A stretch of 64,000 nucleotides of DNA, from positions 37,860,133 through 37,924,132 of the forward strand of contig OZ025263.1 of NCBI GenBank assembly GCA_964019135.1. The letters are read 5' to 3'. This stretch comes from Arenicola marina. Taxonomy: Eukaryota > Annelida > Polychaeta > Arenicolidae. Positions 4,138 through 63,688 of the stretch are shown piece by piece. How positions within the stretch are numbered: the stretch's first letter is position 1; the number at the start of each line of letters is the position of its first letter. The position numbers were made by a program, and so were the translations under genes. The notes beneath the pieces are model-generated. The model searched no databases. It saw only the letters and a list, made by a program, of their open reading frames with translations, and was not told the DNA's origin.

Positions 4138-4352
4138 TTTAAATGGGCTGTGGGTAACGTCTAACGTTATATGATGGGTCGGTGTATGTGAAGTTAACTC
4201 CGGTGCTTAGTGTTGTTTATCTATTTAGACCCGAGTCTTTAGGCTTTAATCTTTCGTTATTGCTGTCCTAGTCCTGTGCGAATATTAGGTTGTCCTTTAG
4301 TGTGTATTGATTAGCCGTTATCTCTTCCAATTATTAGTAGAGCGCCAACCTA

Positions 4353-15428: not shown

Positions 15429-15700
15429 AATTTGAGCTAAATATCGGACATAACGGGCAATTTGGGCTAAATAGCAAGTATAACAGAGAATTTGATGTGC
15501 ACTGGGCATCTAAAGGGCAATTTGGGTTAAACAGCGCGTATAACGGGCAATTTGGGCTAAATAGCGAATATATCCGGTCATTTGAGCTGAACAGCGCATA
15601 TATGGGGGCAATGCTGGATAAACAGCGCCTATATGGGGACAATTCGGGCTAAACAGCGCGCATAACGGGAAATTTGAGCCAAATAGCGCATTCATCCGAA
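15425..15700 (+). repeat. Minisatellite with GGGCAATTTGGGCTAAATA motif, unit about 36 bp
   Basis: About seven copies of GGGCAATTTGGGCTAAATAG-type sequence followed by CGYATATAAC. It adjoins the 21-bp array directly and shares its motif with the clusters near 10.2 and 12.9 kb. Confidence 0.8.
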
Positions 15701-39700: not shown

Positions 39701-42700
39701 CACGTGGGGTGAGTAAGATACCCGTGCACCAGTCACGTGGGGTGAGTAAGATACCCGTGCACCAGTCACGTGGGGCGAGTAAGATACCCGTGCACCAGTC
39801 ACTTGGGGTGAGTAAGATACCCGTGCACCAGTCACGTGGGGTGAGTAAGATACCCGTGCACCAGTCACGTGGGGTGAGTAAGATACCCGTGCACCAGTCA
39901 CGTGGGGTGAGTAAGATACCCGTGCACCAGTCACGTGGGGTGAGTAAGATACCCGTGCACCAGTCACGTGGGGTGAGTAAGATACCCGTGCACCAGTCAC
40001 GTGGGGTGAGTAAGATACCCGTGCGCCAGTCACTTGGGGTGAGTAAGATACCCGTGCACCAGTCACGTGGGGTGAGTAAGATACCCATGCACCAGTCACG
40101 TGGGGTGAGTAAGATACCCGTGCACCAGTCACGTGGGGTGAGTAAGATACCCGTGCACCAGTCACGTGGGGTGAGTAAGATACCCGTGCACCAGTCACGT
40201 GGGGTGAGTAAGATACCCGTGCACCAGTCACGTGGGGTGAGTAAGATACCCGTGCACCAGTCACGTGGGGTGAGTAAGATACCCGTGCACCAGTCACGTG
40301 GGGTGAGTAAGATACCCGTGCACCAGTCACGTGGGGTGAGTAAGATACCCGTGCACCAGTCACGTGGGGTGAGTAAGATACCCGTGCACCAGTCACGTGG
40401 GGTGAGTAAGATACCCGTGCGCCAGTCACTTGGGGTGAGTAAGATACCCGTGCACCAGTCACGTGGGGTGAGTAAGATACCCATGCACCAGTCACTTGGG
40501 GTGAGTAAGATACCCGTGCACCAGTCACGTGGGGTGAGTAAGATACCCGTGCACCAGTCACGTGGGGTGAGTAAGATACCCATGCACCAGTCACGTGGGG
40601 TGAGTAAGATACCCGTGCACCAGTCACGTGGGGTGAGTAAGATACCCGTGCACCAGTCACGTGGGCGCCAGATGTCCGCGTCATATGTTCGACACTTTTT
40701 CGATAAAGTGACCTATTTTAGAGATCGGCAGTCTGGTCCATACTTTGACCACGAATGATTGGTTTCCCCGTGTGGCGTGGCAAATAATAAGGCGAGAGCA
40801 CGTTAAGTACCCATGGTTTTCACGTCTAGCGCTAGTATCTGGTTCAGTTCTAGTTGTGGTCATTGTTCTTCCTATATTGGCATGTGGCGAGTAGTACCAA
40901 CGGAAAAAGTGCCCCGGATGTTAAATACCAGTGCATCTGCACTAAGGAGACTTCTGAGGAAGGCTGAACTCCATGGCATCAACACTCAGGTAACCTATTA
41001 ATCATTGTTATTTATCTTATATTCTGGTTTTATCCTGTATCCTGGGAGAACATGATTCATATTTTGTGAGAATCTAAAATGAATGCTATGGGGGTTTGCT
41101 TATTGTTTCTGTGGCAATACGTTATTGATACTATTTACAGGTTAGAGGTTCACATCCAACATACCGCTATTCATATGGCAACATCTGCCTTCAGTGAAAT
41201 ATCATCTAGGCGTATGCCTCTGTCGCATTTTTGCTTGAATATAAATTCGACGTCATTCACGCCAAACTTGCTATTTCCTGATTTTAAACAAATGCTGGAA
41301 TTATGTTATTACCGATCGATCTACTTCAGGCACAGAACACCGCCAGCAACAAGGATATCAGGAAGAAGTGGCACATACCACCGGCCTTCTCTGTGGAGTT
41401 TGTAGGCTACTATCTAGGTAAAGGACGTGGCACCGGCTTTCTCTGAGGAGTTTGTAGGCTACTATCTAGGTAAAGGACGTAGCAATGGCCTTCTCTGTGG
41501 AGTTTGTAGGCTACTATCTAGGTAAAGGACATACCACCGGCCTTCTCTGTGGAGTTTGTAGGCTACTATCTAGGTAAAGGACGTAGCACCGCCCTTCTCT
41601 GTGGAGTTTGTAGGCTACTATCTAGGTAAAGGACGTAGCACCGGCCTTCTCTGTGGAGTTTGTAGGCTACTATCTAGGTAAAGGACGTACCACCGGCCTT
41701 CTCTGTGGAGTTTCTGGCTACTATCTAGGTAAAGGACGTACCACCGGCCTTCTCTGTGGAGTTTGTAGGCTACTATCTAGGTAAAGGACGTACCACCGGC
41801 CTTCTCTGTGGAGTTTGTAGGCTACTATCTAGGTAAAGGACGTACCACCGGCCTTCTCTGTGGAGTTTGTAGGCTACTATCTAGGTAAAGGACGTAGTAA
41901 CGGCCTTCTCTGTGGAGTTTGTAGGCTACTATCTAGGTAAAGGACGTACCACCGGCCTTCTCTGTGGAGTTTCTGGCTACTATCTAGGTAAAGGACGTAG
42001 CACCGGCCTTCTCTGTGGAGTTTGTATGCTACTATCTAGGTAAAGGACGTAGCACCGCCCTTCTCTGTGGAGTTTGTAGGCTACTATCTAGGTAAAGGAC
42101 GTAGCACCGCCCTTCTCTGTGGAGTTTGTAGGCTACTATCTAGGTAAAGGACGTACCACCGGCCTTCTCTGCGGAGTTTGTAGGCTACTATCTAGGTAAA
42201 GGACGTACCACCGGCCTTCTCTGTGGAGTTTCTGGCTACTATCTAGGTAAAGGACGTACCACCGGCCTTCTCTGTGGAGTTTGTAGGCTACTATCTAGGT
42301 AAAGGACGTACCACCGGCCTTCTCTGTGGAGTTTGTAGGCTACTATCTAGGTAAAGGACGTACCACCGGCCTTCTCTGTGGAGTTTGTAGGCTACTATCT
42401 AGGTAAAGGACGTAGCACCGGCCTTCTCTGTGGAGTTTGTAGGCTACTATCTAGGTAAAGGACGTACCACCGGCCTTCTCTGTGGAGTTTGTAGGCTACT
42501 ATCTAGGTAAAGGACGTACCACCGGCCTTCTCTGTGGAGTTTGTAGGCTACTATCTAGGTAAAGGACGTACCACCGGCCTTCTCTGTGGAGTTTGTGGAC
42601 TACTATCTAGGTAAAGGACGTACCACCGGCCTTCTCTGTGGAGTTAGTAGGCTACTATCTAGGTAAAGGACATACCACCGCCCTTCTCTGTGGAGTTTGT

Positions 42701-45700
42701 AGGCTACTATCTAGGTAAAGGACGTACCACCGGCCTTCTATGTGGAGTTTGTGGGCTAGTATCTAGGTAAAGGACATACCACCGGCCTTCTCTGTGGAGT
42801 TTGTGGGCTACTATCTAGGTAAAGGACATATCACCGGCCTTCTATGTGGAGTTTGTAGGCTACTATCTAGGTAAAGGACGTACCACCGGCCTTCTCTGTA
42901 GAGTTTGTAGGCTACTATCTAGGTAAAGGACATACCACCGGCCTTCTATGTGGAGTTTGTAGGCTACTATCTAGGTAAAGGACGTAGCACCGGCCTTCTC
43001 TGTGGAGTTTGTAGGCTACTATCTAGGTAAAGGACGTAGCACCGGCCTTCTCTGTGGAGTTTGTAGGCTACTATCTAGGTAAAGGACGTAGCAACGGCCT
43101 TCTCTGTGGAGTTTGTAGGCTACTATCTAGGTAAAGAACGTACCACCGCCCTTCTCTGTGGAGTTAGTAGGCTACTATCTAGGTAAAGGACGTACCACCG
43201 GCCTTCTATGTGGAGTTAGTAGGCTACTATCTAGGTAAAGGACGTACCACCTTCCTTCTCTGTGGAGTTTGTGGGCTACTATCTAGGTAAAGGACGTACC
43301 ACCGGCCTTCTCTGTGGAGTTTGTGGGCTACAATCTAGGTAAAGGACGTACCACCGGCCTTCTCTGTGGAGTTTGTAGGCTACTATCTAGGTAAAGGACG
43401 TACCACCTTCCTTCTCTGTGGAGTTTGTGGGCTACTATCTAGGTAAAGGACGTACCACCGGCCTTCTCTGTGGAGTTTGTGGACTACTATCTAGGTAAAG
43501 GACGTAGCACCGCCCTTCTCTGTGGAGTTTGTAGGCTACTATCTAGGTAAAGGACGTACCACCGGCCTTCTCTGTGGAGTTTGTAGGATACTATCTAGGT
43601 AAAGGACGTAGCACCGGCCTTCTCTGTGGAATTTGTAGGCTACTATCTAGGTAAAGGACATACCACCGGCCTTCTCTGTGGAGTTTGTAGGCTACTATCT
43701 AGGTAAAGGACGTACCACCGGCCTTCTCTGTGGAGTTTGTAGGCTACTATCTAGGTAAAGGACATACCACCGGCCTTCTCTGTGGAGTTTGTGGGCTACT
43801 ATCTAGGTAAAGGACGTAGCACCGCCCTTCTCTGTGGAGTTTGTAGGCTACTATCTAGGTAAAGGACGTACCACCGGCCTTCTCTGTGGAGTTTGTAGGA
43901 TACTATCTAGGTAAAGGACGTAGCACCGGCCTTCTCTGTGGAGTTTGTAGGCTACTATCTAGGTAAAGGACATACCACCGGCCTTCTCTGTGGAGTTTGT
44001 AGGCTACTATCTAGGTAAAGGACGTACCACCGGCCTTCTCTGTGGAGTTTGTAGGCTACTATCTAGGTAAAGGACGTAGCACCGGCCTTCTCTGTGGAGT
44101 TTGTAGGATACTATCTAGGTAAAGGACGTGGCACCGGCTTTCTCTGTGGAGTTTGTTGGCTACTATCTAGGTAAAGGACGTACCACCGGCCTTCTCTGTG
44201 GAGTTTGTGGGCTACTATCTAGGTAAAGGACGTAGCACCGGCCTTCTCTGTGGAGTTTGTAGGCTACTATCTAGGTAAAGGACGTACCACCGGCCTTCTC
44301 TGTGGAGTTTGTGGGCTACTATCTAGGTAAAGGACGTAGCACCGGCCTTCTCTGTGGAGTTTGTAGGATACTATCTAGGTAAAGGACGTGGCACCGGCTT
44401 TCTCTGTGGAGTTTGTTGGCTACTATCTAGGTAAAGGACGTACCACCGGCCTTCTCTGTGGAGTTTGTAGGCTACTATCTAGGTAAAGGACGTAGCACCG
44501 GCCTTCTCTGTGGAGTTTGTAGGCTACTATCTAGGTAAAGGACGTGGCACCGGCTTTCTCTGTGGAGTTTGTTGGCTACTATCTAGGTAAAGGACGTACC
44601 ACCGGCCTTCTCTGTGGAGTTTGTGGGCTACTATCTAGGTAAAGGACATACCACCGGCCTTCTCTGTGGAGTTTGTAGGCTACTATCTAGGTAAAGGACG
44701 TACCACCGGCCTTCTCTGTGGAGTTTGTGGGCTACTATCTAGGTAAAGGACGTAGCACCGGCCTTCTCTGTGGAGTTTGTAGGATACTATCTAGGTAAAG
44801 GACGTGGCACCGGCTTTCTCTGTGGAGTTTGTTGGCTACTATCTAGGTAAAGGACGTACCACCGGCCTTCTCTGTGGAGTTTGTAGGCTACTATCTAGGT
44901 AAAGGACGTAGCACCGGCCTTCTCTGTGGAGTTTGTAGGCTACTATCTAGGTAAAGGACGTAGTACGGCCTTCTCTGTGGAGTTTGTAGGCTACTATCTA
45001 GGTAAAGGACGTAGCACCGGCCTTCTCTGTGGAGTTTGTGGACTACTATCTAGGTAAAGGACATATCACCGGCCTTCTCTGTGGAGTTTGTGGACTACTA
45101 TCTAGGTAAAGGACATATCACCGGCCTTCTCTGTGGAGTTTGTGGACTACTATCTAGGTAAAGGACGTAGCACCGGCCTTCTCTGTGGAGTTTGTGGACT
45201 ACTATCTAGGTAAAGGACGTAGCACCGGCCTTCTCTGTGGAGTTTGTGGACTACTATCTAGGTAAAGGACATATCACCGGCCTTCTCTGTGGAGTTTGTG
45301 GACTACTATCTAGGTAAAGGACGTAGCACCGGCCTTCTCTGTGGAGTTTGTAGGCTACTATCTAGGTAAAGGACATACCACCGGCCTTCTCTGTGGAGTT
45401 TGTAGGCTACTATCTAGGTAAAGGACGTAGTAACGGCCTTCTCTGTGGAGTTTGTAGGCTACTATCTAGGTAAAGGACGTAGCACCGGCCTTCTCTGTGG
45501 AGTTTGTAGGCTACTATCTAGGTAAAGGACGTAGCACCGGCCTTCTCTGTGGAGTTTGTTGGCTACTATCTAGGTAAAGGACGTACCACCGGCCTTCTCT
45601 GTGGAGTTAGTAGGCTACTATCTAGGTAAAGGACATACCACCGCCCTTCTCTGTGGAGTTTGTAGGCTACTATCTAGGTAAAGGACGTACCACCGGCCTT

Positions 45701-48700
45701 CTCTGTGGAGTTTGTGGGCTAGTATCTAGGTAAAGGACATACCACCGGCCTTCTCTGTGGAGTTTGTGGGCTACTATCTAGGTAAAGGACGTACCACCGC
45801 CCTTCTCTGTGGAGTTTGTAGGCTACTATCTAGGTAAAGGACGTACCACCGGCCTTCTCTGTGGAGTTTGTGGACTACTATCTAGGTAAAGGACGTACCA
45901 CCGGCCTTCTCTGTGGAGTTAGTAGGCTACTATCTAGGTAAAGGACATACCACCGCCCTTCTCTGAGGAGTTTGTAGGCTACTATCTAGGTAAAGGACGT
46001 ACCACCGGCCTTCTCTGTGGAGTTTGTGGGCTAGTATCTAGGTAAAGGACATACCACCGGCCTTCTCTGTGGAGTTTGTGGGCTACTATCTAGGTAAAGG
46101 ACATACCACCGGCCTTCTATGTGGAGTTTGTAGGCTACTATCTAGGTAAAGAACGTAGCACCGGCCTTCTTTGTAGAGTTTGTAGGCTACTATCTAGGTA
46201 AAGGACGCGGCACCGGCTTTCTCTGAGGAGTTTGTAGGCTACTATCTAGGTAAAGGACGTAGCAATGGCCTTCTCTGTGGAGTTTGTAGGCTACTATCTA
46301 GGTAAAGGACGTACCACCGCCTTTCTCTGTGGAGTTTGTAGGCTACTATCTAGGTAAAGGACGTAGCACCGGCCTTCTCTGTGGAGTTTGTAGGCTACTA
46401 TCTAGGTAAAGGACGTAGCAACGGCCTTCTCTGTGGAGTTTCTGGCTACTATCTAGGTAAAGGACGTACCACCGCCCTTCTCTGTGGAGTTTGTAGGCTA
46501 CTATCTAGGTAAAGGACGTACCACCGGCCTTTTCTGTGGAGTTTGTGGACTACTATCTAGGTAAAGGACGTACCACCGCCCTTCTCTGTGGAGTTTGTAG
46601 GCTACTATCTAGGTAAAGGACGTACCACCGCCCTTCTCTGTGGAGTTTGTAGGCTACTATCTAGGTAAAGGACGTACCACCGGCCTTCTATGTGGAGTTT
46701 GTGGGCTAGTATCTAGGTAAAGGACATACCACCGGCCTTCTCTGTGGAGTTTGTGGGCTACTATCTAGGTAAAGGACATATCACCGGCCTTCTATGTGGA
46801 GTTTGTAGGCTACTATCTAGGTAAAGAACGTAGCACCGGCCTTCTCTGTAGAGTTTGTAGGCTACTATCTAGGTAAAGGACATACCACCGGCCTTCTATG
46901 TGGAGTTTGTAGGCTACTATCTAGGTAAAGGACGTGGCACCGGCTTTCTCTGTGGAGTTTGTGGGCTACTATCTAGGTAAAGGACGTAGCAACGGCCTTC
47001 TCTGTGGAGTTTGTAGGATACTATCTAGGTAAAGGACGTGGCACCGGCCTTCTCTGTGGAGTTAGTAGGCTACTATCTAGGTAAAGGACATACCACCGCC
47101 CTTCTCTGTGGAGTTTGTAGGCTACTATCTAGGTAAAGGACGTACCACCGGCCTTCTCTGTGGAGTTTGTGGGCTAGTATCTAGGTAAAGGACGTAGCAC
47201 CGGCCTTCTCTGTGGAGTTTGTAGGATACTATCTAGGTAAAGGACGTGGCACCGGCTTTCTCTGTGGAGTTTGTTCGCTACTATCTAGGTAAAGGACGTA
47301 CCACCGGCCTTCTCTGTGGAGTTAGTAGGCTACTATCTAGGTAAAGGACATACCACCGCCCTTCTCTGTGGAGTTTGTAGGCTACTATCTAGGTAAAGGA
47401 CGTACCACCGGCCTTCTCTGTGGAGTTTGTGGGCTACTATCTAGGTAAAGGACGTAGCACCGGCCTTCTCTGTGGAGTTTGTAGGATACTATCTAGGTAA
47501 AGGACGTGGCACCGGCTTTCTCTGTGGAGTTTGTTGGCTACTATCTAGGTAAAGGACGTACCACCGGCCTTCTCTGTGGAGTTTGTAGGCTACTATCTAG
47601 GTAAAGGACGTAGCACCGGCCTTCTCTGTGGAGTTTGTAGGCTACTATCTAGGTAAAGGACGTGGCACCGGCTTTCTCTGTGGAGTTTGTTGGCTACTAT
47701 CTAGGTAAAGGACGTACCACCGGCCTTCTCTGTGGAGTTTGTGGGCTACTATCTAGGTAAAGGACATACCACCGGCCTTCTCTGTGGAGTTTGTGGACTA
47801 CTATCTAGGTAAAGGACATATCACCGGCCTTCTCTGTGGAGTTTGTGGACTACTATCTAGGTAAAGGACGTAGCACCGGCCTTCTCTGTGGAGTTTGTAG
47901 GCTACTATCTAGGTAAAGGACATACCACCGGCCTTCTCTGTGGAGTTTGTAGGCTACTATCTAGGTAAAGGACGTAGTAACGGCCTTCTCTGTGGAGTTT
48001 GTAGGCTACTATCTAGGTAAAGGACGTACCACCGGCCTTCTCTGTGGAGTTAGTAGGCTACTATCTAGGTAAAGGACATACCACCGGCCTTCTCTGTGGA
48101 GTTTGTGGGCTACTATCTAGGTAAAGGACGTACCACCGCCCTTCTCTGTGGAGTTTGTAGGCTACTATCTAGGTAAAGGACGTACCACCGGCCTTCTCTG
48201 TGGAGTTTGTGGACTACTATCTAGGTAAAGGACGTACCACCGGCCTTCTCTGTGGAGTTAGTAGGCTACTATCTAGGTAAAGGACATACCACCGCCCTTC
48301 TCTGAGGAGTTTGTAGGCTACTATCTAGGTAAAGGACGTACCACCGGCCTTCTCTGTGGAGTTTGTGGGCTAGTATCTAGGTAAAGGACATACCACCGGC
48401 CTTCTCTGTGGAGTTTGTGGGCTACTATCTAGGTAAAGGACATACCACCGGCCTTCTATGTGGAGTTTGTAGGCTACTATCTAGGTAAAGAACGTAGCAC
48501 CGGCCTTCTTTGTAGAGTTTGTAGGCTACTATCTAGGTAAAGGACGCGGCACCGGCTTTCTCTGAGGAGTTTGTAGGCTACTATCTAGGTAAAGGACATA
48601 CCACCGCCCTTCTCTGTGGAGTTTGTAGGCTACTATCTAGGTAAAGGACGTACCACCGCCCTTCTCTGTGGAGTTTGTAGGCTACTATCTAGGTAAAGGA

Positions 48701-51700: not shown

Positions 51701-54700
51701 CTAGGTAAAGGACGTACCACCGCCCTTCTCTGTGGAGTTTGTAGGCTACTATCTAGGTAAAGGACGTACCACCGGCCTTTTCTGTGGAGTTTGTGGACTA
51801 CTATCTAGGTAAAGGACGTACCACCGCCCTTCTCTGTGGAGTTTGTAGGCTACTATCTAGGTAAAGGACGTACCACCGCCCTTCTCTGTGGAGTTTGTAG
51901 GCTACTATCTAGGTAAAGGACGTACCACCGGCCTTCTATGTGGAGTTTGTGGGCTAGTATCTAGGTAAAGGACATACCACCGGCCTTCTCTGTGGAGTTT
52001 GTGGGCTACTATCTAGGTAAAGGACATATCACCGGCCTTCTATGTGGAGTTTGTAGGCTACTATCTAGGTAAAGAACGTAGCACCGGCCTTCTCTGTAGA
52101 GTTTGTAGGCTACTATCTAGGTAAAGGACATACCACCGGCCTTCTATGTGGAGTTTGTAGGCTACTATCTAGGTAAAGGACGTGGCACCGGCTTTCTCTG
52201 TGGAGTTTGTGGGCTACTATCTAGGTAAAGGACGTAGCAACGGCCTTCTCTGTGGAGTTTGTAGGATACTATCTAGGTAAAGGACGTGGCACCGGCCTTC
52301 TCTGTGGAGTTAGTAGGCTACTATCTAGGTAAAGGACATACCACCGCCCTTCTCTGTGGAGTTTGTAGGCTACTATCTAGGTAAAGGACGTACCACCGGC
52401 CTTCTCTGTGGAGTTTGTGGGCTAGTATCTAGGTAAAGGACGTAGCACCGGCCTTCTCTGTGGAGTTTGTAGGATACTATCTAGGTAAAGGACGTGGCAC
52501 CGGCTTTCTCTGTGGAGTTTGTTGGCTACTATCTAGGTAAAGGACGTACCACCGGCCTTCTCTGTGGAGTTAGTAGGCTACTATCTAGGTAAAGGACATA
52601 CCACCGCCCTTCTCTGTGGAGTTTGTAGGCTACTATCTAGGTAAAGGACGTACCACCGGCCTTCTCTGTGGAGTTTGTGGGCTACTATCTAGGTAAAGGA
52701 CGTAGCACCGGCCTTCTCTGTGGAGTTTGTAGGATACTATCTAGGTAAAGGACGTGGCACCGGCTTTCTCTGTGGAGTTTGTTGGCTACTATCTAGGTAA
52801 AGGACGTACCACCGGCCTTCTCTGTGGAGTTTGTAGGCTACTATCTAGGTAAAGGACGTAGCACCGGCCTTCTCTGTGGAGTTTGTAGGCTACTATCTAG
52901 GTAAAGGACGTGGCACCGGCTTTCTCTGTGGAGTTTGTTGGCTACTATCTAGGTAAAGGACGTACCACCGGCCTTCTCTGTGGAGTTTGTAGGCTACTAT
53001 CTAGGTAAAGGACGTACCACCGGCCTTCTCTGTGGAGTTTGTAGGCTACTATCTAGGTAAAGGACGTACCACCGGCCTTCTCTGTGGAGTTTGTGGGCTA
53101 CTATCTAGGTAAAGGACGTAGCACCGGCCTTCTCTGTGGAGTTTGTAGGATACTATCTAGGTAAAGGACGTGGCACCGGCTTTCTCTGTGGAGTTTGTTG
53201 GCTACTATCTAGGTAAAGGACGTACCACCGGCCTTCTCTGTGGAGTTTGTAGGCTACTATCTAGGTAAAGGACGTAGCACCGGCCTTCTCTGTGGAGTTT
53301 GTAGGCTACTATCTAGGTAAAGGACGTAGTAACGGCCTTCTCTGTGGAGTTTGTAGGCTACTATCTAGGTAAAGGACGTAGCACCGGCCTTCTCTGTTTA
53401 GTTTGTGGACTACTATCTAGGTAAAGGACATATCACCGGCCTTCTCTGTGGAGTTTGTGGACTACTATCTAGGTAAAGGACATATCACCGGCCTTCTCTG
53501 TGGAGTTTGTGGACTACTATCTAGGTAAAGGACGTAGCACCGGCCTTCTCTGTGGAGTTTGTAGGCTACTATCTAGGTAAAGGACATACCACCGGCCTTC
53601 TCTGTGGAGTTTGTAGGCTACTATCTAGGTAAAGGACATACCACCGGCCTTCTCTGTGGAGTTTGTAGGCTACTATCTAGGTAAAGGACGTAGCACCGGC
53701 CTTCTCTGTGGAGTTTGTAGGCTACTATCTAGGTAAAGGACGTAGCACCGGCCTTCTCTGTGGAGTTTGTTGGCTACTATCTAGGTAAAGGACGTACCAC
53801 CGGCCTTCTCTGTGGAGTTAGTAGGCTACTATCTAGGTAAAGGACATACCACCGCCCTTCTCTGTGGAGTTTGTAGGCTACTATCTAGGTAAAGGACGTA
53901 CCACCGGCCTTCTCTGTGGAGTTTGTGGGCTAGTATCTAGGTAAAGGACATACCACCGGCCTTCTCTGTGGAGTTTGTGGGCTACTATCTAGGTAAAGGA
54001 CGTACCACCGCCCTTCTCTGTGGAGTTTGTAGGCTACTATCTAGGTAAAGGACGTACCACCGGCCTTCTCTGTGGAGTTTGTGGACTACTATCTAGGTAA
54101 AGGACGTACCACCGGCCTTCTCTGTGGAGTTAGTAGGCTACTATCTAGGTAAAGGACATACCACCGCCCTTCTCTGAGGAGTTTGTAGGCTACTATCTAG
54201 GTAAAGGACGTACCACCGGCCTTCTCTGTGGAGTTTGTGGGCTAGTATCTAGGTAAAGGACATACCACCGGCCTTCTCTGTGGAGTTTGTGGGCTACTAT
54301 CTAGGTAAAGGACATACCACCGGCCTTCTATGTGGAGTTTGTAGGCTACTATCTAGGTAAAGAACGTAGCACCGGCCTTCTTTGTAGAGTTTGTAGGCTA
54401 CTATCTAGGTAAAGGACGCGGCACCGGCTTTCTCTGAGGAGTTTGTAGGCTACTATCTAGGTAAAGGACGTAGCAATGGCCTTCTCTGTGGAGTTTGTAG
54501 GCTACTATCTAGGTAAAGGACGTACCACCGCCCTTCTCTGTGGAGTTTGTAGGCTACTATCTAGGTAAAGGACGTAGCACCGGCCTTCTCTGTGGAGTTT
54601 GTAGGCTACTATCTAGGTAAAGGACGTAGCAACGGCCTTCTCTGTGGAGTTTCTGGCTACTATCTAGGTAAAGGACGTACCACCGCCCTTCTCTGTGGAG

Positions 54701-57700
54701 TTTGTAGGCTACTATCTAGGTAAAGGACGTACCACCGGCCTTTTCTGTGGAGTTTGTGGACTACTATCTAGGTAAAGGACGTACCACCGCCCTTCTCTGT
54801 GGAGTTTGTAGGCTACTATCTAGGTAAAGGACGTACCACCGCCCTTCTCTGTGGAGTTTGTAGGCTACTATCTAGGTAAAGGACGTACCACCGGCCTTCT
54901 ATGTGGAGTTTGTGGGCTAGTATCTAGGTAAAGGACATACCACCGGCCTTCTCTGTGGAGTTTGTGGGCTACTATCTAGGTAAAGGACATATCACCGGCC
55001 TTCTATGTGGAGTTTGTAGGCTACTATCTAGGTAAAGAACGTACCACCGGCCTTCTCTGTAGAGTTTGTAGGCTACTATCTAGGTAAAGGACATACCACC
55101 GGCCTTCTATGTGGAGTTTGTAGGCTACTATCTAGGTAAAGGACGTGGCACCGGCTTTCTCTGTGGAGTTTGTGGGCTACTATCTAGGTAAAGGACGTAG
55201 CAACGGCCTTCTCTGTGGAGTTTGTAGGATACTATCTAGGTAAAGGACGTGGCACCGGCCTTCTCTGTGGAGTTAGTAGGCTACTATCTAGGTAAAGGAC
55301 ATACCACCGCCCTTCTCTGTGGAGTTTGTAGGCTACTATCTAGGTAAAGGACGTACCACCGGCCTTCTCTGTGGAGTTTGTGGGCTAGTATCTAGGTAAA
55401 GGACGTAGCACCGGCCTTCTCTGTGGAGTTTGTAGGATACTATCTAGGTAAAGGACGTGGCACCGGCTTTCTCTGTGGAGTTTGTTGGCTACTATCTAGG
55501 TAAAGGACGTACCACCGGCCTTCTCTGGAGTTAGTAGGCTACTATCTAGGTAAAGGACATACCACCGCCCTTCTCTGTGGAGTTTGTAGGCTACTATCTA
55601 GGTAAAGGACGTACCACCGGCCTTCTCTGTGGAGTTTGTGGGCTACTATCTAGGTAAAGGACGTACCACCGCCCTTCTCTGTGGAGTTTGTAGGCTACTA
55701 TCTAGGTAAAGGACGTACCACCGGCCTTCTCTGTGGAGTTTGTGGACTACTATCTAGGTAAAGGACGTACCACCGGCCTTCTCTGTGGAGTTAGTAGGCT
55801 ACTATCTAGGTAAAGGACATACCACCGCCCTTCTCTGAGGAGTTTGTAGGCTACTATCTAGGTAAAGGACGTACCACCGGCCTTCTCTGTGGTGTTTGTG
55901 GGCTAGTATCTAGGTAAAGGACATACCACCGGCCTTCTCTGTGGAGTTTGTGGGCTACTATCTAGGTAAAGGACATACCACCGGCCTTCTATGTGGAGTT
56001 TGTAGGCTACTATCTAGGTAAAGAACGTAGCACCGGCCTTCTTTGTAGAGTTTGTAGGCTACTATCTAGGTAAAGGACGTAGCAACGGCCTTCTCTGTGG
56101 AGTTTGTAGGCTACTATCTAGGTAAAGGACGTAGCAATGGCCTTCTCTGTGGAGTTTGTAGGCTACTATCTAGGTAAAGGACATACCACCGGCCTTCTAT
56201 GTGGAGTTTGTGGGCTACTATCTAGGTAAAGAACGTAGCACCGGCCTTCTCTGTGGAGTTTGTGGGCTACTATCTAGGTAAAGGACATACCACCGGCCTT
56301 CTATGTGGAGTTTGTAGGCTACTATCTAGGTAAAGAACGTAGCACCGGCCTTCTTTGTAGAGTTTGTAGGCTACTATCTAGGTAAAGGACGTAGTAACGG
56401 CCTTCTTTGTAGAGTTTGTAGGCTACTATCTAGGTAAAGGACATACCACCGGCCTTCTATGTGGAGTTTGTAGGCTACTATCTAGGTAAAGAACGTAGCA
56501 CCGGCCTTCTCTGTGGAGTTTGTAGGCTACTATCTAGGTAAAGGACGTACCACCGCCCTTCTCTGTGGAGTTTGTAGGCTACTATCTAGGTAAAGGACGT
56601 ACCACCGGCCTTCTCTGTGGAGTTTGTGGACTACTATCTAGGTAAAGGACGTACCACCGCCCTTCTCTGTGGAGTTTGTAGGCTACTATCTAGGTAAAGC
56701 ACGTACCACCGGCCTTCTCTGTGGAGTTTGTGGACTACTATCTAGGTAAAGGACGTACCACCGGCCTTCTCTGTGGAGTTAGTAGGCTACTATCTAGGTA
56801 AAGGACATACCACCGCCCTTCTCTGAGGAGTTTGTAGGCTACTATCTAGGTAAAGGACGTACCACCGGCCTTCTCTGTGGAGTTTGTAGGCTACTATCTA
56901 GGTAAAGGACATACCACCGCCCTTCTCTGTGGAGTTTGTAGGCTACTATCTAGGTAAAGGACGTACCACCGGCCTTCTCTGTGGAGTTAGTAGGCTACTA
57001 TCTAGGTAAAGGACATACCACCGCCCTTCTCTGAGGAGTTTGTAGGCTACTATCTAGGTAAAGGACGTACCACCGGCCTTCTCTGTGGAGTTTGTAGGCT
57101 ACTATCTAGGTAAAGGACGTACCACCGGCATTCTATGTGGAGTTTGTAGGCTACTATCTAGGTAAAGGACGTACCACCGGCCTTCTCTGTGGAGTTTGTG
57201 GGCTACTATCTAGGTAAAGGACGTACCACCGGCCTTCTATGTGGAGTTTGTAGGCTACTATCTAGGTAAAGAACGTAGCACCGGCCTTCTTTGTAGAGTT
57301 TGTAGGCTACTATCTAGGTAAAGGACGTAGTAACGGCCTTCTTTGTAGAGTTTGTAGGCTACTATCTAGGTAAAGGACATACCACCGGCCTTCTATGTGG
57401 AGTTTGTAGGCTACTATCTAGGTAAAGAACGTAGCACCGGCCTTCTCTGTGGAGTTTGTAGGCTACTATCTAGGTAAAGGACGTACCACCGCCCTTCTCT
57501 GTGGAGTTTGTAGGCTACTATCTAGGTAAAGCACGTACCACCGGCCTTCTCTGTGGAGTTTGTGGACTACTATCTAGGTAAAGGACGTACCACCGGCCTT
57601 CTCTGTGGAGTTAGTAGGCTACTATCTAGGTAAAGGACATATCACCGCCCTTCTCTGAGGAGTTTGTAGGCTACTATCTAGGTAAAGGACGTACCACCGG

Positions 57701-60700
57701 CCTTCTCTGTGGAGTTTGTGGGCTAGTATCTAGGTAAAGGACATACCACCGGCCTTCTCTGTGGAGTTTGTGGGCTACTATCTAGGTAAAGGACATACCA
57801 CCGGCCTTCTATGTGGAGTTTGTAGGCTACTATCTAGGTAAAGAACGTAGCACCGGCCTTCTTTGTAGAGTTTGTAGGCTACTATCTAGGTAAAGGACGT
57901 AGTAACGGCCTTCTTTGTAGAGTTTGTAGGATACTATCTAGGTAAAGGACGTGGCACCGGCTTTCTCTGAGGAGTTTGTAGGCTACTATCTATGTAAAGG
58001 ACGTAGCAACGGCCTTCTCTGTGGAGTTTGTAGGCTACTATCTAGGTAAAGGACGTAGCAATGGCCTTCTCTGTGGAGTTTGTAGGCTACTATCTAGGTA
58101 AAGGACATACCACCGGCCTTCTATGTGGAGTTTGTAGGCTACTATCTAGGTAAAGAACGTAGCACCGGCCTTCTCTGTGGAGTTTGTGGGCTACTATCTA
58201 GGTAAAGGACATACCACCGGCCTTCTATGTGGAGTTTGTAGGCTACTATCTAGGTAAAGAACGTAGCACCGGCCTTCTTTGTAGAGTTTGTAGGCTACTA
58301 TCTAGGTAAAGGACGTAGTAACGGCCTTCTTTGTAGAGTTTGTAGGCTACTATCTAGGTAAAGGACATACCACCGGCCTTCTATGTGGAGTTTGTAGGCT
58401 ACTATCTAGGTAAAGAACGTAGCACCGGCCTTCTTTGTAGAGTTTGTAGGCTACTATCTAGGTAAAGGACGTAGTAACGGCCTTCTTTGTAGAGTTTGTA
58501 GGATACTATCTAGGTAAAGAACGTACCACCGGCCTTCTATGTGGAGTTTGTAGGCTACTATCTAGGTAAAGAACGTAGCACCGGCCTTCTTTGTAGAGTT
58601 TGTAGGCTACTATCTAGGTAAAGAACGTAGCACCGGCCTTCTATGTAGAGTTTGTAGGATACTATCTAGGTAAAGGACGTGGCACCGGCTTTCTCTGTGG
58701 AGTTTGTAGGCTACTATCTAGGTAAAGGACGTACCACCGCCCTTCTCTGGGGAGTTTGTAGGCTACTATCTAAGTAAAGGACATACCACCGGCCTTCTAT
58801 GTGGAGTTTGTAGGCTACTATCTAGGTAAAGGACGTAGCACCGGCCTTCTCTGTGGAGTTTGTAGGCTACTATCTAGGTAAAGGACGTAGCAACGGCCTT
58901 CTCTGTGGAGTTTGCAGGCTACTATCTAGGTAAAGGACATACCACCGGCCTTCTATGTGGAGTTTGTAGACTACTATCTAGGTAAAGGACATACCACCGG
59001 CCTTCTCTGTGGAGTTTGTTGGCTACTATCTAGGTAAAGGACATACCACCGGCCTTCTCTGTGGAGTTTGTAGGCTACTATCTAGGTAAAGGACGTAGCA
59101 CCGGCCTTCTCTGTGGAGTTTGTAGGATACTATCTAGGTAAAGGACGTACCACCGGCCTTCTCTGTGGAGTTTGTAGGCTACTATCTAGGTAAAGGACGT
59201 AGCACCGGCCTTCTCTGTGGAGTTTGTAGGATACTATCTAGGTAAAGGACGTACCACCGGCCTTCTCTGTGGAGTTTGTTGGCTACTATCTAGGTAAAGG
59301 ACATACCACCGGCCTTCTCTGTGGAGTTTCTGGCTACTATCTAGGTAAAGGACGTACCACCGGCCTTCTCTGTGGAGTTTGTGGGCTACTATCTAGGTAA
59401 AGGACGTACCACCGCCCTTCTCTGTGGAGTTTGTAGGCTACTATCTAGGTAAAGGACGTACCACCGGCCTTCTCTGTGGAGTTTGTGGACTACTATCTAG
59501 GTAAAGGACGTACCACCGGCCTTCTCTGTGGAGTTAGTAGGCTACTATCTAGGCAAAGGACATACCACCGCCCTTCTCTGTGGAGTTTGTGGGCTACTAT
59601 CTAGGTAAAGGACGTACCACCGGCCTTCTCTGTGGAGTTTGTGGGCTAGTATCTAGGTAAAGGACATACCACCGGCCTTCTCTGTGGAGTTTGTGGGCTA
59701 CTATCTAGGTAAAGGACATACCACCGGCCTTCTATGTGGAGTTTGTAGGCTACTATCTAGGTAAAGAACGTAGCACCGGCCTTCTCTGTAGAGTTTGTAG
59801 GCTACTATCTAGGTAAAGGACATACCACCGGCCTTCTATGTGGAGTTTGTAGGCTACTATCTAGGTAAAGGACGTAGCACCGGCCTTCTCTGTGGAGTTT
59901 GTAGGCTACTATCTAGGTAAAGGACGTAGCAACGGCCTTCTCTGTGGAGTTTGTAGGCTACTATCTAGGTAAAGGACGTAGCACCGGCCTTCTCTGTGGA
60001 GTTTGTAGGATACTATCTAGGTAAAGGACGTGGCACCGGCCTTCTCTGTGGAGTTTGTAGGATACTATCTAGGTAAAGGACGTGGCACCGGCTTTCCCTG
60101 TGGAGTTTGTAGGCTACTATCTAGGTAAAGGACGTACCACCGCCCTTCTCTGGGGAGTTTGTAGGCTACTATCTAAGTAAAGGACATACCACCGGCCTTC
60201 TATGTGGAGTTTGTAGGCTACTATCTAGGTAAAGGACGTAGCACCGGCCTTCTCTGTGGAGTTTGTAGGCTACTATCTAGGTAAAGGACGTAGCACCGCC
60301 CTTCTATGTGGAGTTTGTAGGATACTATCTAGGTAAAGGACGTGGCACCGGCCTTCTCTGTGGAGTTTGTAGGATACTATCTAGGTAAAGGCCGTGGCAC
60401 CGGCTTTCCCTGTGGAGTTTGTAGGCTACTATCTAGGTAAAGGACGTACCACCGCCCTTCTCTGGGGAGTTTGTAGGCTACTATCTAAGTAAAGGACATA
60501 CCACCGGCCTTCTATGTGGAGTTTGTAGGCTACTATCTAGGTAAAGGACGTAGCACCGGCCTTCTCTGTGGAGTTTGTAGGCTACTATCTAGGTAAAGGA
60601 CGTAGCACCGCCCTTCTCTGTGGAGTTTGTGGGCTACTATCTAGGTAACGGACGTGGCACCGGCTTTCTCTGTGGAGTTTGTAGGCTACTATCTAGGTAA

Positions 60701-63688
60701 AGGACGTACCACCGCCCTTCTCTGTGGAGTTTGTAGGCTACTATCAAAGTAAAGGACATACCACCGGCCTTCTATGTGGAGTTTGTAGGCTACTATCTAG
60801 GTAAAGGACGTAGCACCGGCCTTCTCTGTGGAGTTTGCAGGCTACTATCTAGGTAAAGGACGTAGCAACGGCCTTCTCTGTGGAGTTTGCAGGCTACTAT
60901 CTAGGTAAAGGACGTACCACCGCCCTTCTCTGGGGAGTTTGTAGGCTACTATCTAGGTAAAGGACGTAGCACCGGCCTTCTCTGTGGAGTTTGTAGGCTA
61001 CTATCTTAGTAAAGGACGTACCACCGGCCTTCTCTGTGGAGTTTGTGGGCTACTATCTAGGTAAAGGACGTAGCACCGGCCTTCTCTGTGGAGTTTGTAG
61101 GCTACTATCTAGGTAAAGGACGTAGCACCGGCCTTCTCTGTGGAGTTTGTAGGCTACTATCTTAGTAAAGGACGTACCACCGGCCTTCTCTGTGGAGTTT
61201 GTGGGCTACTATCTAGGTAAAGGACGTAGCACCGGCCTTCTCTGTGGAGTTTGTAGGCTACTATCTAGGTAAAGGGCGTACCACCGGCCTTCTCTGTGGA
61301 GTTTGTAGGCCACTATCTTAGTAAAGGACGTACCACCGGCTATCTCTGTGGAGTTTGTGGGCTACTATCTAGGTAAAGGACGTACCACCGGCCTTCTCTG
61401 TGGAGTTTGTAGGCTACTATCTAGGTAAAGGACGTAGCACCGGCCTTCTCTGTGGAGTTTGTAGGCTTCTATCTAGGTAAAGGATGTACCGCCGGCCTTC
61501 TCTGTGGAGTTTGTTGGCTACTATCTAGGTAAAGGACGTACCACCGGCCTTCTCTGTGGAGTTTGTAGGCTACTATCTTAGTAAAGGACGTACCACCGGC
61601 CTTCTCTGTGGAGTTTGTGGGCTACTATCTAGGTAAAGGACGTACCACCGGCCTTCTCTGTGAAGTTTGTAGGCTACTATCTAGGTAAAGGACGTAGCAC
61701 CGGCCTTCTCTGTGGAGTTTGTAGGCTACTATCTAGGTAAAGGACGTACCACCGGCCTTCTCTGTGGAGTTTGTAGGCTACTATCTTAGTAAAGGACGTA
61801 CCACCGGCCTTCTCTGTGGAGTTTGTGGGCTACTATCTAGGTAAAGGACGTAGCACCGGCCTTCTCTGTGGAGTTTGTAGGCTACTATCTAGGTAAAGGG
61901 CGTACCACCGGCCTTCTCTGTGGAGTTTGTAGGCCACTATCTTAGTAAAGGACGTACCACCGGCCTTCTCTGTGGAGTTTGTAGGCTACTATCTTAGTAA
62001 AGGACGTACCACCGGCCTTCTCTGTGGAGTTTGTGGGCTACTATCTAGGTAAAGGACGTAGCACCGGCCTTCTCTGTGGAGTTTGTAGGCTACTATCTAG
62101 GTAAAGGACATACCACCGCGCTTCTCTGTGGAGTTTGTAGGATACTATCTAGGTAAATGACGTAGCACCGCCCTTCTCTGTGGTGTTTGTAGGCTACTAT
62201 CTAGGTAAAGGACGTAGCACCGGCCTTCTCTGTGGAGTTTGTAGGCTACTATCTTAGTAAAGGACGTACCACCGGCCTTCTCTGTGGAGATTTTAGGCTA
62301 CTATCTAGGTAAAGGATGTACCACCGGCCTTCTCTGTGGAGTTTGTAGGCTACTATCTAGGTAAAGGACGTACCACCGGCCTTCTCTGTGTAGTTTGTAG
62401 GCTGCTATCTAGGTAAAGGACGTACCACCGGCCTTCTCTGTGGAGTTTGTAGGCTGCTATCTAGGTAAAGGACGTACCACCGGCCTTCTCTGTGGAGTTT
62501 GTAGGCTACTATCTAGGTAAAGGACGTAGCACCGGCCTTCTCTGTGGAGTTTGTAGGCTACTATCTAGGTAAAGGACGTAGCAACGGCCTTCTCTGTGGA
62601 GTTTGTAGGCTACTATCTAGGTAAAGGACTACCACTGGCCTTCTCTCTGGAGTTTGTAGGCTGCTATCTAGGTAAAGGACGTACCACCGGCCTTCTCTGT
62701 GGAGTTTGTAGGCTACTATCTAGGTAAAGGACGTAGCACCGGCCTTCTCTGTGGAGTTTGTAGGCTACTATCTAGGTAAAGGACGTACCACCGGCCTTCT
62801 CTGTGGAGTTTGTAGGCTACTATCTTAGTAAAGGACGTACCACCGGCCTTCTATGTGGAGTTTGTGGGCTACTATCTAGGTAAAGGATGTACCACCGACC
62901 TTCTCTGTGGAGTTTGTAGGCTACTATCTAGGTAAAGGACGTAGCACCGGCCTTCTCTGTGGAGTGTGTAGGCTACTATCTAGGTAAAGGCCGTAGCACC
63001 GGTCTTCTCTGTGAAGTTTGTAGGCTACTATCTAGGTAAAGGATGTACCACCGGCCTTCTCTGTGGAGTTTGTAGGCTACTATCTAGGTAAAGGACGTAC
63101 CACCGGCCTTCTCTGTGGAGTTTGTAGGCTACTATCTAGGTAAAGAACGTACCACCGGCCTTCTCTGTGGAGTTTGTAGGCTACTATCTAGGTAAAGGAC
63201 TACCACCGGCCTTCTCTCTGGAGTTTGTAGGCTGCTATCTAGGTAAAGGACGTACCACCGGCCTTCTCTGTGGAGTTTGTAGGCTACTATCTAGGTAAAC
63301 GACGTAGCACCTGCCTTCTCTGTGGAGTTTGTAGGCTACTATCTAGGTAAAGGACTACCACCGGCCTTCTCTGTGGGGTTTGTAGGCTACTATCTAGGTA
63401 GAGGACGTACCACCGGCCTTCTCTGTGGAGTTTGTAGGCTACTATCTAGGTAAAGGACGTACCACCGGCTTTCTCTGTGGAGTTTGTAGGCTACTATCTA
63501 GGTAAAGGACGTACCACCGGCCTTCTCTGTATTTGACATCAGTTACCGGTACTTGACACTGCCTCTTTGACCTGTAATCAGACCGCAACGAACGGATGAC
63601 AACGATGGCGACTCACTTCCTGGAGCTGGTCAATCAAAGGAAACGCCTCGAGCAACAGGAACGTGAGATCAGGCTGCGCTATGACCAG
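21674..63688 (+). CDS. PHF14: PHF14, PHD finger protein 14, 15 exons, 3' part outside window
   Basis: PHF14 is a nuclear chromatin reader; in vertebrates its PHD-zinc knuckle-PHD (PZP) module binds the histone H3 tail. Exons: 21674-21728, 25074-25184, 25895-26049, 26530-26627, 27187-27242, 27462-27562, 31674-31729, 32032-32143, 32361-32455, 38666-38708, 39029-39172, 39501-39576, 40895-40989, 41330-41417, 63582-63688. Together they give 1392 nt (464 codons), with all phases agreeing. An acidic, serine-rich N-terminus (residues 20-105) precedes the PZP module (about 131-312), with CCVCLGE, CDSCGISVHEGCYG, EPWFCDAC, CELCP, GRWVHIVCALYIPGVAFGD, LCEDERF and CDAGMCRAYFHVTC. Next come YCKQHAD, a basic linker, the conserved SASALRRLLRKAELHGI block and the start of a coiled coil. 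The stretch before the first PHD is about 130 residues against roughly 300 in the human protein as I recall it. Two further PHD fingers should lie to the right of the window. Confidence 0.95.
21729..25073. other. PHF14 intron 1, no gene seen
   Basis: About 3.3 kb, AT-rich and mostly unique. It contains short poly-C and poly-G stretches near 22920-23350 and no exon I can support. Open frames up to 189 codons on the minus strand have no recognisable domain. Confidence 0.5.
25074..25184 (+). CDS. PHF14: PHF14 exon 2
   Basis: Acceptor TTTTTATGTCAG, donor G|GTGAGTAA. It encodes ERDPRKRRVKPVQQHLMQLD followed by SSDDSDYEMP, which corresponds to the KRRQVKP and SSDDSDF motifs at the start of human PHF14. 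If intron 1 is wrong, translation could begin at ATG 25067. Confidence 0.9.
25305..25906 (+). repeat. 38-bp minisatellite of intron 2 carrying the 3' splice site
   Basis: About 15 copies of a 38-bp unit containing TTTGTTTTATTGGATATAG, then CCAGATGGTCTAAATG. The last copy ends in GGACATGGCCAG directly followed by exon 3 (ATGACGTAGATG), so the true acceptor is the final copy and each earlier copy has a T-rich tract and a CCAG. The exon start matches the corresponding repeat bases at about 10 of 15 positions. Confidence 0.9.
25895..26049 (+). CDS. PHF14: PHF14 exon 3 (acidic region)
   Basis: Donor GTT|GTAAGTAT. It encodes DDVDDVDDEIADDVCELKSR and then a serine/acid-rich stretch with SDISGTSSEDEPPEED. 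It matches the acidic low-complexity region before the first PHD in PHF14 proteins and is shorter here. The acceptor is the last unit of the 38-bp array. Confidence 0.88.
26050..26529. other. PHF14 intron 3, no feature seen
   Basis: Unique sequence without further exons that I can support. Small open frames continue from exon 4 upstream and are not supported by splice sites. Confidence 0.5.
26530..26627 (+). CDS. PHF14: PHF14 exon 4 (start of first PHD finger)
   Basis: Acceptor CGTCTGTTGCAG, donor ATCAG|GTACAACG. It encodes SKLNDAVDCPESNMAASSRI and then CCVCLGEI with the first zinc-binding cysteines (about residues 132-135). Confidence 0.92.
26628..27186. other. PHF14 intron 4, no feature seen
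   Basis: AT-rich unique sequence; no exon or repeat recognised. Confidence 0.5.
27187..27242 (+). CDS. PHF14: PHF14 exon 5 (first PHD finger)
   Basis: Acceptor TTTTGCTTTTAG, donor GAAG|GTATTTTA. It encodes SEEENEIVECDSCGISVHEG, with the Cys pair and the zinc-binding His of the PHD fold. Confidence 0.95.
27462..27562 (+). CDS. PHF14: PHF14 exon 6 (end of first PHD finger)
   Basis: Acceptor TTTCTCCAACAG, donor CCG|GTAAGTTA. It encodes CYGISDCQSV, then SSASTEPWFCDACRAGLKP, closing the first PHD finger (CxxC at about residues 183-186). The end of this exon and its donor are duplicated 72 bp downstream. Confidence 0.95.
27543..27690 (+). repeat. 72-bp tandem duplication of the exon 6 end and its donor
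   Basis: CGGGCCTCAAGCCGGTAAGT and CGGGCCTCAAGCCGGTAAGC lie 72 bp apart, each followed by TAGTCTGGTTAATAAAGATC. The second donor is at 27635. If it were used, the added 24 codons would hit a stop at once (GTA AGT TAG), so it is a decoy or a source of non-productive mRNA. Confidence 0.92.
27690..31100. repeat. 44-bp C-rich minisatellite of intron 6, about 78 copies
   Basis: The unit contains CCCCTCCCCCCACCGCCTTC, CCGTCACATACAACTTATAC and AGAA. The left end has looser units (CCTCCCCGTC, TTAAGGAG), and the right two thirds are very regular. Because 44 is not a multiple of three the frame rotates, giving 44-residue pseudo-repeats in open frames of up to 530 codons that are not genes. The minus strand has GGGGGGAGGGG in each unit and could form G-quadruplexes. 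Confidence 0.95.
31101..31673. other. Rest of PHF14 intron 6, nothing seen
   Basis: Unique AT-rich sequence between the 44-bp array and exon 7. Confidence 0.5.
31674..31729 (+). CDS. PHF14: PHF14 exon 7 (zinc knuckle)
   Basis: Acceptor TTATGTCCAACAG, donor GGAAG|GTACGCAG. It encodes HCELCPNEGGVYKETDTG; CELCP is the zinc knuckle between the two PHD folds of the PZP module. Confidence 0.95.
31730..32031. other. PHF14 intron 7, nothing seen
   Basis: 302 bp of unique sequence, no feature. Confidence 0.5.
32032..32143 (+). CDS. PHF14: PHF14 exon 8 (PZP module)
   Basis: Acceptor TTGCCTTGTTTCAG, donor AGA|GTAAGTGT. It encodes WVHIVCALYIPGVAFGDVDK, then LSPVTLYEMPHTKWGAR, the very conserved centre of the PZP module. 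Confidence 0.97.
32361..32455 (+). CDS. PHF14: PHF14 exon 9 (extended PHD)
   Basis: Acceptor GAATTGGTTGCAG, donor ACGTG|GTATGTAT. It encodes TCTLCEDERFSQTG, then VCIGCDAGMCRAYFHVT, the second, extended PHD. An upstream CAG near 32321 is not used, because the frame after it meets a stop. Confidence 0.96.
32581..37858. repeat. 42-bp CpG-rich minisatellite of intron 9, about 126 copies
   Basis: The unit contains GGCCGGTGCGAGTCCCACTC, GTGTCGACTGTGTGAGCGCG and GT. Common variants are TCTCTGAG for TGTGTGAG, GATGGCC for GGTGGCC, and a 2-bp shorter GACTGTGAGCG version. Each consensus unit has six CpG and a GTCGAC palindrome. The period is 14 codons and stop-free on both strands, which explains open frames of over 1000 codons on both strands (for instance CRLCERGGRCESHS). 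The array lies wholly within an intron whose flanking exons splice in phase. Confidence 0.96.
37859..38034. other. Right flank of the 42-bp array
   Basis: Just after the array the sequence TTCCACGTGTCACAGGTG resembles the end of exon 9 (TTCCACGTCACGTGGTATG). It may be a relic of the junction from which the array grew. The similarity is short and weak. Confidence 0.3.
38035..38328 (-). pseudogene. Possible N-terminus of a Mutator-like transposase
   Basis: A minus-strand ORF of 97 codons with a true ATG (AAAAATGTCTCAG). It begins MSQLRRNKSGRF, continues through a serine/acid-rich linker and ends with GRRIVELGHLAAGL and CKACSSDIFL. Basic RRNxxGRF starts and a GRRIVxLxxLAxxLxCxxC segment occur, as I recall, at the N-terminus of Mutator-type transposases common in marine invertebrates. 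The ORF stops right after that segment and no catalytic domain follows within the intron, so it is a fragment, antisense to PHF14. Confidence 0.4.
38329..38665. other. Intron 9 remainder, nothing further recognised
   Basis: Upstream of the minus-strand ORF the sequence is moderately GC-rich (TACGTGGCGCCACGGGTGAC) and could be its promoter or element end. A palindrome-like CCCCGGGGGTAACCCCC lies near 38487. Confidence 0.35.
38666..38708 (+). CDS. PHF14: PHF14 exon 10 (43 nt)
   Basis: Acceptor CTATAATTCCAG, donor GAG|GTAAGCGC. With the TG from exon 9 it encodes CGLREGLLSEAAPDE, corresponding to human CAQKEGLLSEAAAEE. This small exon is easily missed but is required for frame and domain. Confidence 0.95.
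38709..39028. other. PHF14 intron 10, nothing seen
   Basis: About 320 bp, AT-rich, with a short TA microsatellite near 38858-38870. Confidence 0.5.
39029..39172 (+). CDS. PHF14: PHF14 exon 11
   Basis: Acceptor CTATTTACATTTCAG. It encodes DIADPFYAYCKQHADKL, then RRNWLALQS and an EKEK end; the first part is nearly identical to the vertebrate protein. The donor AAG|GTCGGAGC is weak, but it is the only placement that keeps phase 0 into exon 12 before the frame closes. Confidence 0.93.
39211..39270 (+). other. Two perfect hairpins in intron 11
   Basis: Arms 39211-39232 and 39234-39255 are perfect 22-nt complements around a single G (left arm starts ACACAGCGGCGGCC). A second perfect hairpin, 39252-39260 and 39262-39270 (GTGTTAGAA arms, one-base loop), overlaps its end. 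They lie about 40 bp after the weak donor of exon 11 and next to a poly-C and CA run. Confidence 0.95.
39271..39500. other. PHF14 intron 11 remainder, nothing seen
   Basis: Unique sequence ending in the acceptor of exon 12. Confidence 0.5.
39501..39576 (+). CDS. PHF14: PHF14 exon 12
   Basis: Acceptor CTTTGTGTTTGTAG, donor TGGG|GTGAGTAAG. It encodes ARVQRKLRVHRQKYLAGQFK and KQPSW, equivalent to ARINARLQQYRAKAELARS and RPQAW in human PHF14. A basic, helical linker region. Confidence 0.93.
39571..40663 (+). repeat. 33-bp minisatellite of intron 12, each unit with a strong donor
   Basis: About 33 copies of a 33-bp unit containing CGTGGGGTGAGTAAGATACC, CGTGCACCAGT and CA. The first copy starts in the last bases of exon 12, so the unit holds about 5 nt of exon and 28 nt of intron. 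Nearly all copies keep GTGAGTAAG (a few read GCGAGTAAG). Most junctions also form a CACGTG palindrome, with CACTTG in several. The period of 33 gives stop-free frames in three of the six readings, but the frame coming from exon 12 stops at once (GGT GAG TAA). Confidence 0.97.
40664..40894. other. Right flank of the 33-bp array to exon 13
   Basis: Unique sequence. The acceptor region ATGTGGCGAGTAG|TACC has a poor pyrimidine tract and resembles the array's GTGGGGCGAGTAAGATACC. Confidence 0.4.
40895..40989 (+). CDS. PHF14: PHF14 exon 13
   Basis: With the G from exon 12 it encodes VPTEKVPRML, then SASALRRLLRKAELHGINTQ, matching human VPREKLPRPL and SASAIRKLMRKAELMGI. Donor CAG|GTAACCTA. The acceptor at 40891-40894 has a weak tract but is fixed by phase and protein match. 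Confidence 0.92.
40990..41329. other. PHF14 intron 13, nothing seen
   Basis: About 340 bp of unique sequence. Confidence 0.5.
41330..41417 (+). CDS. PHF14: PHF14 exon 14
   Basis: Acceptor CGATCTACTTCAG, donor CTAG|GTAAAGGA. It encodes AQNTASNKDIRKKWHIPPAF and SVEFVGYYL, corresponding to human KHKQPALTADFVNYYF. Its last 40 nt are the seed of the 52-bp array that follows. Confidence 0.93.
41378..63529 (+). repeat. 52-bp minisatellite of intron 14, about 426 copies, each with exon 14 end plus donor
   Basis: The unit is the last 40 nt of exon 14 (ACCGGCCTTCTCTGTGGAG, TTTGTAGGCTACTATCTAG) plus the first 12 nt of the intron (GTAAAGGACGTR). It fills almost the whole 22-kb intron. Some units read GGACATACCACCGG, closer to the exon. 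Nearly all keep TATCTAGGTAAAG; from about 58.7 kb variants TATCTAAGTAAAG and TATCTTAGTAAAG appear, still with GT. A 2-bp shorter TTTCTGGCTAC version also recurs. Since 52 is not a multiple of three, no long frame survives. Longer segments of 2.3-3.0 kb are themselves repeated. Confidence 0.98.
63582..63688 (+). CDS. PHF14: PHF14 exon 15 (coiled-coil start)
   Basis: Acceptor TTTGACCTGTAATCAG, donor CAG|GTAAGGGC. With the G of exon 14 it encodes DRNERMTTMATHFLELVNQR, then KRLEQQEREIRLRYDQ, matching ERNMRMIQIQENMAEQ and the following coiled coil of human PHF14. The gene continues beyond the window. Confidence 0.93.

Follow-up and report, generated by a model that had tools for sequence, protein, structure and literature searches.

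The window, the whole 64,000-nucleotide stretch of DNA analysed here, contains part of a PHF14 gene, and the features of this gene and of related loci are listed in Table 1. Fourteen modelled exons from 25074 to 63688, with one start corrected, gave an open frame of 445 residues. Over the stretch searched, this translation showed 57-58% identity to its two best matches, and it matched PDB chain 7d86 with an E value of 4.1e-98. Judged by this homology, the gene is PHF14, as the sequence-only reading had proposed. The exon ending at 41417 is the 13th coding exon in the model beginning at 25074, and the predicted exon is preceded by an AG acceptor. The joined translation over the 41417/63582 junction remained in frame (...VEFVGYYL|DRNERMTTMATHF...), and PHF14 relatives were alike across the same junction (P0008, ...TEFISYYFDRNERM...; P0013, ...VEFISYYLERN...). 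Because these relatives share sequence over the junction, protein homology supports both the predicted exon end at 41417 and its partner at 63582, and with them the earlier proposal that the authentic donor is the first copy of the array described below.

Table 1. Exons, intron and tandem arrays of the PHF14 gene, and splice-site arrays of the blind sample.
Feature	Position	Strand	Basis
Acceptor-containing array, 38 bp x 15.2; last copy carries the acceptor for exon 25895..26049; AG in 15/15 full units	25321..25897	+	
PHF14 coding exon using the acceptor of the 38-bp array	25895..26049	+	exon model, translation
Exon end and donor in two copies about 72 bp apart (GGCCTCAAGCCG|GTAAG at 27562 and 27634)	27548..27640	+	read from sequence
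Intronic array, 44 bp x 77, containing none of the gene's splice sites	27690..31103	+	Tandem Repeats Finder
Intronic array, 42 bp x 126, containing none of the gene's splice sites	32573..37856	+	Tandem Repeats Finder
PHF14 coding exon; its donor, GGG|GTGAGT, lies in the first copy of the 33-bp array	39501..39576	+	exon model, translation
Donor-containing array, 33 bp x 33.2; +2 T altered in 2/32 full units	39571..40665	+	
PHF14 coding exon, 88 nt; 3' end is copy 1 of the 52-bp array; predicted donor TAG|GTAAAG at 41417/41418	41330..41417	+	exon model, translation, PHF14 homologs spanning the junction
Donor-containing array, 52 bp, 426.4 copies; copy 1 is the PHF14 exon end and donor	41376..63530	+	Tandem Repeats Finder, unit split
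Intron, 22,164 bp; array throughout except for 63531-63581	41418..63581	+	sequence
Next PHF14 coding exon	63582..63688	+	exon model, translation
Acceptor array, 61 bp x 94, on C18 downstream of the window; AG in 94/94 full units	L001:2196-7940		
Donor array, 71 bp, 32.1 copies by Tandem Repeats Finder, 31 donors found; copy 1 ends a ClC-like exon	L024:5640-8611	-	
Acceptor repeat, about 90 bp, 5 copies found, one without AG; ends in a TRPM-like exon	L015:7873-8985		

The intron downstream of the 88-nt exon is occupied by a tandem array. Tandem Repeats Finder gave a period of 52, with 93% matches and a score of 37926, which was the highest in the window. The array begins inside exon 41330-41417, goes on into the intron and covers it except for about 51 bp, the gap that separates the array end from the exon at 63582. 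Splitting the array unit by unit yielded 426 full units and a partial last one, with 111 distinct sequences among the 426. Each unit is composed of about 40 exonic and 12 intronic bases, a division that hinges on the cutting point because copy 1 is alignable from either 41374 or 41378. Every unit has the form CTATCTAG|GTAAAG; the donor GT was intact in 425 of the 426 full units, and the 9-mer TAG|GTAAAG was unaltered in 406. These results bore out the description of a 22-kb intron filled by some 426 copies of an exon end together with the donor, in a unit of 52 nt that contains the donor and keeps GT in nearly every copy. An exact 23-mer of the unit was found in none of the 29 loci retrieved, which represent a small fraction of the genome.

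We then considered what the repeated donors would mean for splicing. When the exon was extended to any later donor, the identical in-frame stop appeared at codon 39 of the exon in 425 of 425 cases, in agreement with the earlier expectation that downstream donors would quickly meet a stop. With a textbook donor matrix, the strength of the repeated donor was 5.97 bits, the fifth weakest among the 18 modelled donors of the gene. Local donor strength cannot pick out the first copy, because the consensus copies all carry the same donor. Position and exon length could single out the first donor, and exon definition would be a reasonable idea for how the choice is made. The shielding of donors by RNA structure was ruled out, as the RNA over the exon and the first copies folded less stably than shuffles (z +2.4).

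Tandem arrays made up 84% of the 64.7-kb part of the PHF14 gene that was studied. Besides the 52-bp array, the gene holds a second donor array (33 copies) and two acceptor arrays (15 and 94 copies). The last copy of the 61-bp array contains the acceptor and the first bases of a PHF14 PHD-finger exon (L001:7914-8045). The complete retention of AG in both acceptor arrays (Table 1) was uninformative on constraint, because many other columns were equally invariant. In addition to the two-copy exon end with donor in the window, a second one was read from the sequence of L001 near 1967/2033. A 49-bp array (L002:1108-4205) begins at an exon end whose donor is ambiguous, being either CAG|GTGGTC or, upstream, GTG|GTGAGT. 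A 32-bp array (L001:139-1455) adjoins an acceptor with the AG left outside the repeat, and its repeated part, CTTAACTGAC, is branch-point-like. More minisatellites lie upstream of the studied gene part, at window positions 1-389, 461-4143 and 14507-15691, with units of 39, 27, 20 and 63 bp.

The wider abundance of such arrays was estimated in a blind sample of 18 stretches of 10 kb (L008-L025), taken at fixed places on contigs C1-C9. Tandem arrays accounted for 45% of the bases, and 4 of the 18 stretches were array throughout, end to end. The sample listed 67 arrays with a unit of 15 bp or more and 1275 open frames. Coding context was looked at in L024 and L015, and two further splice-site arrays of the sample were found there, the one in L024 belonging to a ClC-like gene and the one in L015 to a TRPM-like gene. 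The ClC-like Pfam match (PF00654, E 1.2e-8) extends into the next exon past the array, and the TRPM-like exon matched PF25508 (E 1.5e-14). The L024 intron also carries, after the array, older and diverged relatives of the 71-bp repeat. An 84-bp repeat in another stretch (L013:5186-6015) translates on its minus strand into C2H2 zinc fingers and is therefore a coding repeat.

The overlap of arrays with splice sites was compared with a chance expectation, in which units were placed at random in array-collapsed sequence. In the 64.7-kb gene part, 4 of the 10 arrays contained a splice site versus 1.7-2.0 expected (P 0.07-0.11), a test in which several exon limits, in the last four exons, were placed by eye. 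The overlap was therefore not clearly above chance, and plain chance seeding could account for it. With the ambiguous 49-bp array included, the count was 5 of 10 (P 0.016-0.032), and chance becomes a less comfortable explanation. Donor motifs were not significantly enriched in the arrays of the blind sample (8/56 versus 5.8 expected, p 0.23; strong form, 4/56 versus 1.6, p 0.07), nor in those of the window and the downstream stretch (4/18 versus 3.6 expected, p 0.53; strong form, 3/18 versus 1.4, p 0.12).

The 52-bp array itself carries traces of its turnover. It contains 15 exact block duplications of at least 8 units. Their lengths range from 8 to 17 units and their spacings from 45 to 158 units, and in the longest, of 17 units, the two blocks are spaced 101 units apart. 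The exonic copy has the same sequence as 11 of the 426 units, itself being one of them. The block duplications and the matches to the exonic copy show turnover by exchange. The array copies showed no coding constraint: of the changes possible in the exonic columns, the variants observed comprised 12 of 32 that are synonymous, 39 of 89 that are nonsynonymous and 2 of 5 that create a stop.

Taken with the sequence features above, these observations make it probable, in our judgement, that the array is a "mirage"-type minisatellite, seeded across the PHF14 exon edge and tolerated by splicing as a by-product. A short tandem duplication would once have covered the PHF14 exon end and the first intron bases, and the observed copy number and block duplications suggest that growth to about 426 copies may have proceeded via unequal exchange and block duplication. 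The exon-proximal copy would be the only donor to yield the short open-frame exon, while later ones would lengthen the exon and add a stop. Splicing could still work because only this copy gives an 88-nt exon with an open frame; the later donors bring a stop, and transcripts from them, if made, would therefore be lost. The array would most likely be a by-product of a widely minisatellite-making genome and not a selected splicing-control device, because nearly half of the sampled DNA is array and the splice-site overlap stayed close to chance (45% and P 0.07-0.11, as given above).

The host of the array was assessed from COX1 on the mitochondrial contig (code 5), which was 92% identical to COX1 of Pilargis wolfi; the annelids that followed in rank, nereids among them, reached 88-90%. 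The host is thus presumably a phyllodocid annelid. A cephalochordate (amphioxus) host was ruled out by this COX1 match and by the identity of the PHF14 translation to Branchiostoma PHF14, which was only 51% versus 57-58% for the two best matches.

According to the accessible parts of two reports, mirages in amphioxus are tandem repeats over exon-intron boundaries, at donors and acceptors, which reportedly leave splicing undisturbed; they occur in Adh3, with units of 10-72 bp, in the globin genes BflGb6 and BflGb9 and in PGBD5, and TnC and others are cited (PMC3087553, PMC3902484). The arrays described here resemble them, as far as those parts go, in being minisatellite-like, in spanning the boundary at donors or acceptors, in keeping many AG/GT and in having the authentic site exon-proximal. 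Unlike the amphioxus globin and PGBD5 mirages of 3-7 copies, the annelid array reaches 426 copies and 22 kb; unlike the amphioxus mirages described in those parts, it also lies in an annelid host, and several such arrays occur within one gene. The mirage hosts named in those parts are cephalochordates; this difference concerns distribution rather than mechanism. An annelid parallel is provided by intron 1 of earthworm metallothionein, which, in the accessible part of the report, carries minisatellite-class tandem repeats with monomers of about 180 bp, duplications of a fourth exon also being mentioned (PMC12783039). The likeness is that of an annelid gene with minisatellite-class intron repeats; the difference is that those monomers lie inside the intron, and the same part describes no splice-site-carrying repeats. 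In the portion of the openly licensed literature that was accessible, no annelid mirage case was found. The 52-bp array is a real and extreme case of a known sequence kind, in a new phylum. That an annelid gene has such arrays at donors as well as acceptors, one of them with hundreds of copies, suggests that in genomes rich in minisatellites the edges of exons can seed repeats time and again. The case also offers a natural experiment on how the spliceosome selects a single donor when hundreds of almost identical ones are available, and on how an intron that was once tiny can reach tens of kilobases.

Whether selection also keeps the copies usable is an interesting question beyond the reading of a tolerated minisatellite. 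Exchange might move one inner copy after another into the exon-proximal position, where it would serve as the working donor; broken donors then could not spread, and the exonic part would drift freely. We regard such a donor reserve as unlikely, and the array offers several observations in its favour. All six variant types of GTAAAG were singletons, compared with 20 of the 61 types in the other columns (Fisher P 0.0023, not corrected for linkage). The copies are related by descent, so that this test overstates their independence; by rank, the result is 1 in 52. Among the 52 six-column windows, GTAAAG was the sole one without a variant above one copy, and it was the least diverged (0.23% versus a mean of 4.1%). 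A purely neutral by-product would not predict so few spread variants in the donor hexamer, a number below that of every other six-column window of the array. The lack of coding constraint in the exonic columns agrees with free drift of that part; however, exonic stops and nonsynonymous variants have not been purged. The complete donor from -3 to +6 ranked only 5 of 52, and the pattern is absent from the 33-bp array, where GTGAGT ranked 21 of 33 and the +2 T was lost in two units (Table 1). The singleton-only variants of the donor hexamer are a lead, not proof, of selection via inner-copy promotion. If selection of this kind were true, splice-site minisatellites would constitute a renewable, self-policing exon edge in minisatellite-rich genomes.

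It appears improbable that the intron itself was born by tandem duplication of an exon segment. An intron-gain model has been put forward for amphioxus mirages in the accessible part of PMC3087553, and in PHF14 an AG|GT sits at the duplicated boundary of an intron that is almost entirely array; however, the final 51 bp, acceptor included, do not stem from the repeat and so speak for a small intron of older date. The intron gain by tandem genomic duplication described in the accessible part of PMC4974935 is similar in its tandem duplication around AGGT boundaries. In that system a new intron arises from a single duplication, whereas in PHF14 the array was amplified at a boundary already in place.

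We consider it highly improbable that the array serves as a splicing device, in which hundreds of donors would bind U1 or the intron would be removed stepwise (recursively) via the AG|GT of each unit. A splice from donor 1 to the AG of any unit would, as its sequence suggests, rebuild the same donor, and two further AGs per unit scored 5.6 and 6.4 with a matrix built from the acceptors of the PHF14 gene. However, the AG that precedes the GT scored only 0.5, below 16 of the 18 modelled acceptors of the gene (leave-one-out). The 33-bp donor array lacks AG|GT, and the weak folding of the RNA over the exon and the first copies likewise argues against such a device.

That the array is an assembly error, either false or inflated in length, is barely credible: long tandem arrays are difficult to assemble and block duplications are present in this one, but its units are diverse in sequence, the window contains no N, and comparable arrays occur at several unrelated places.
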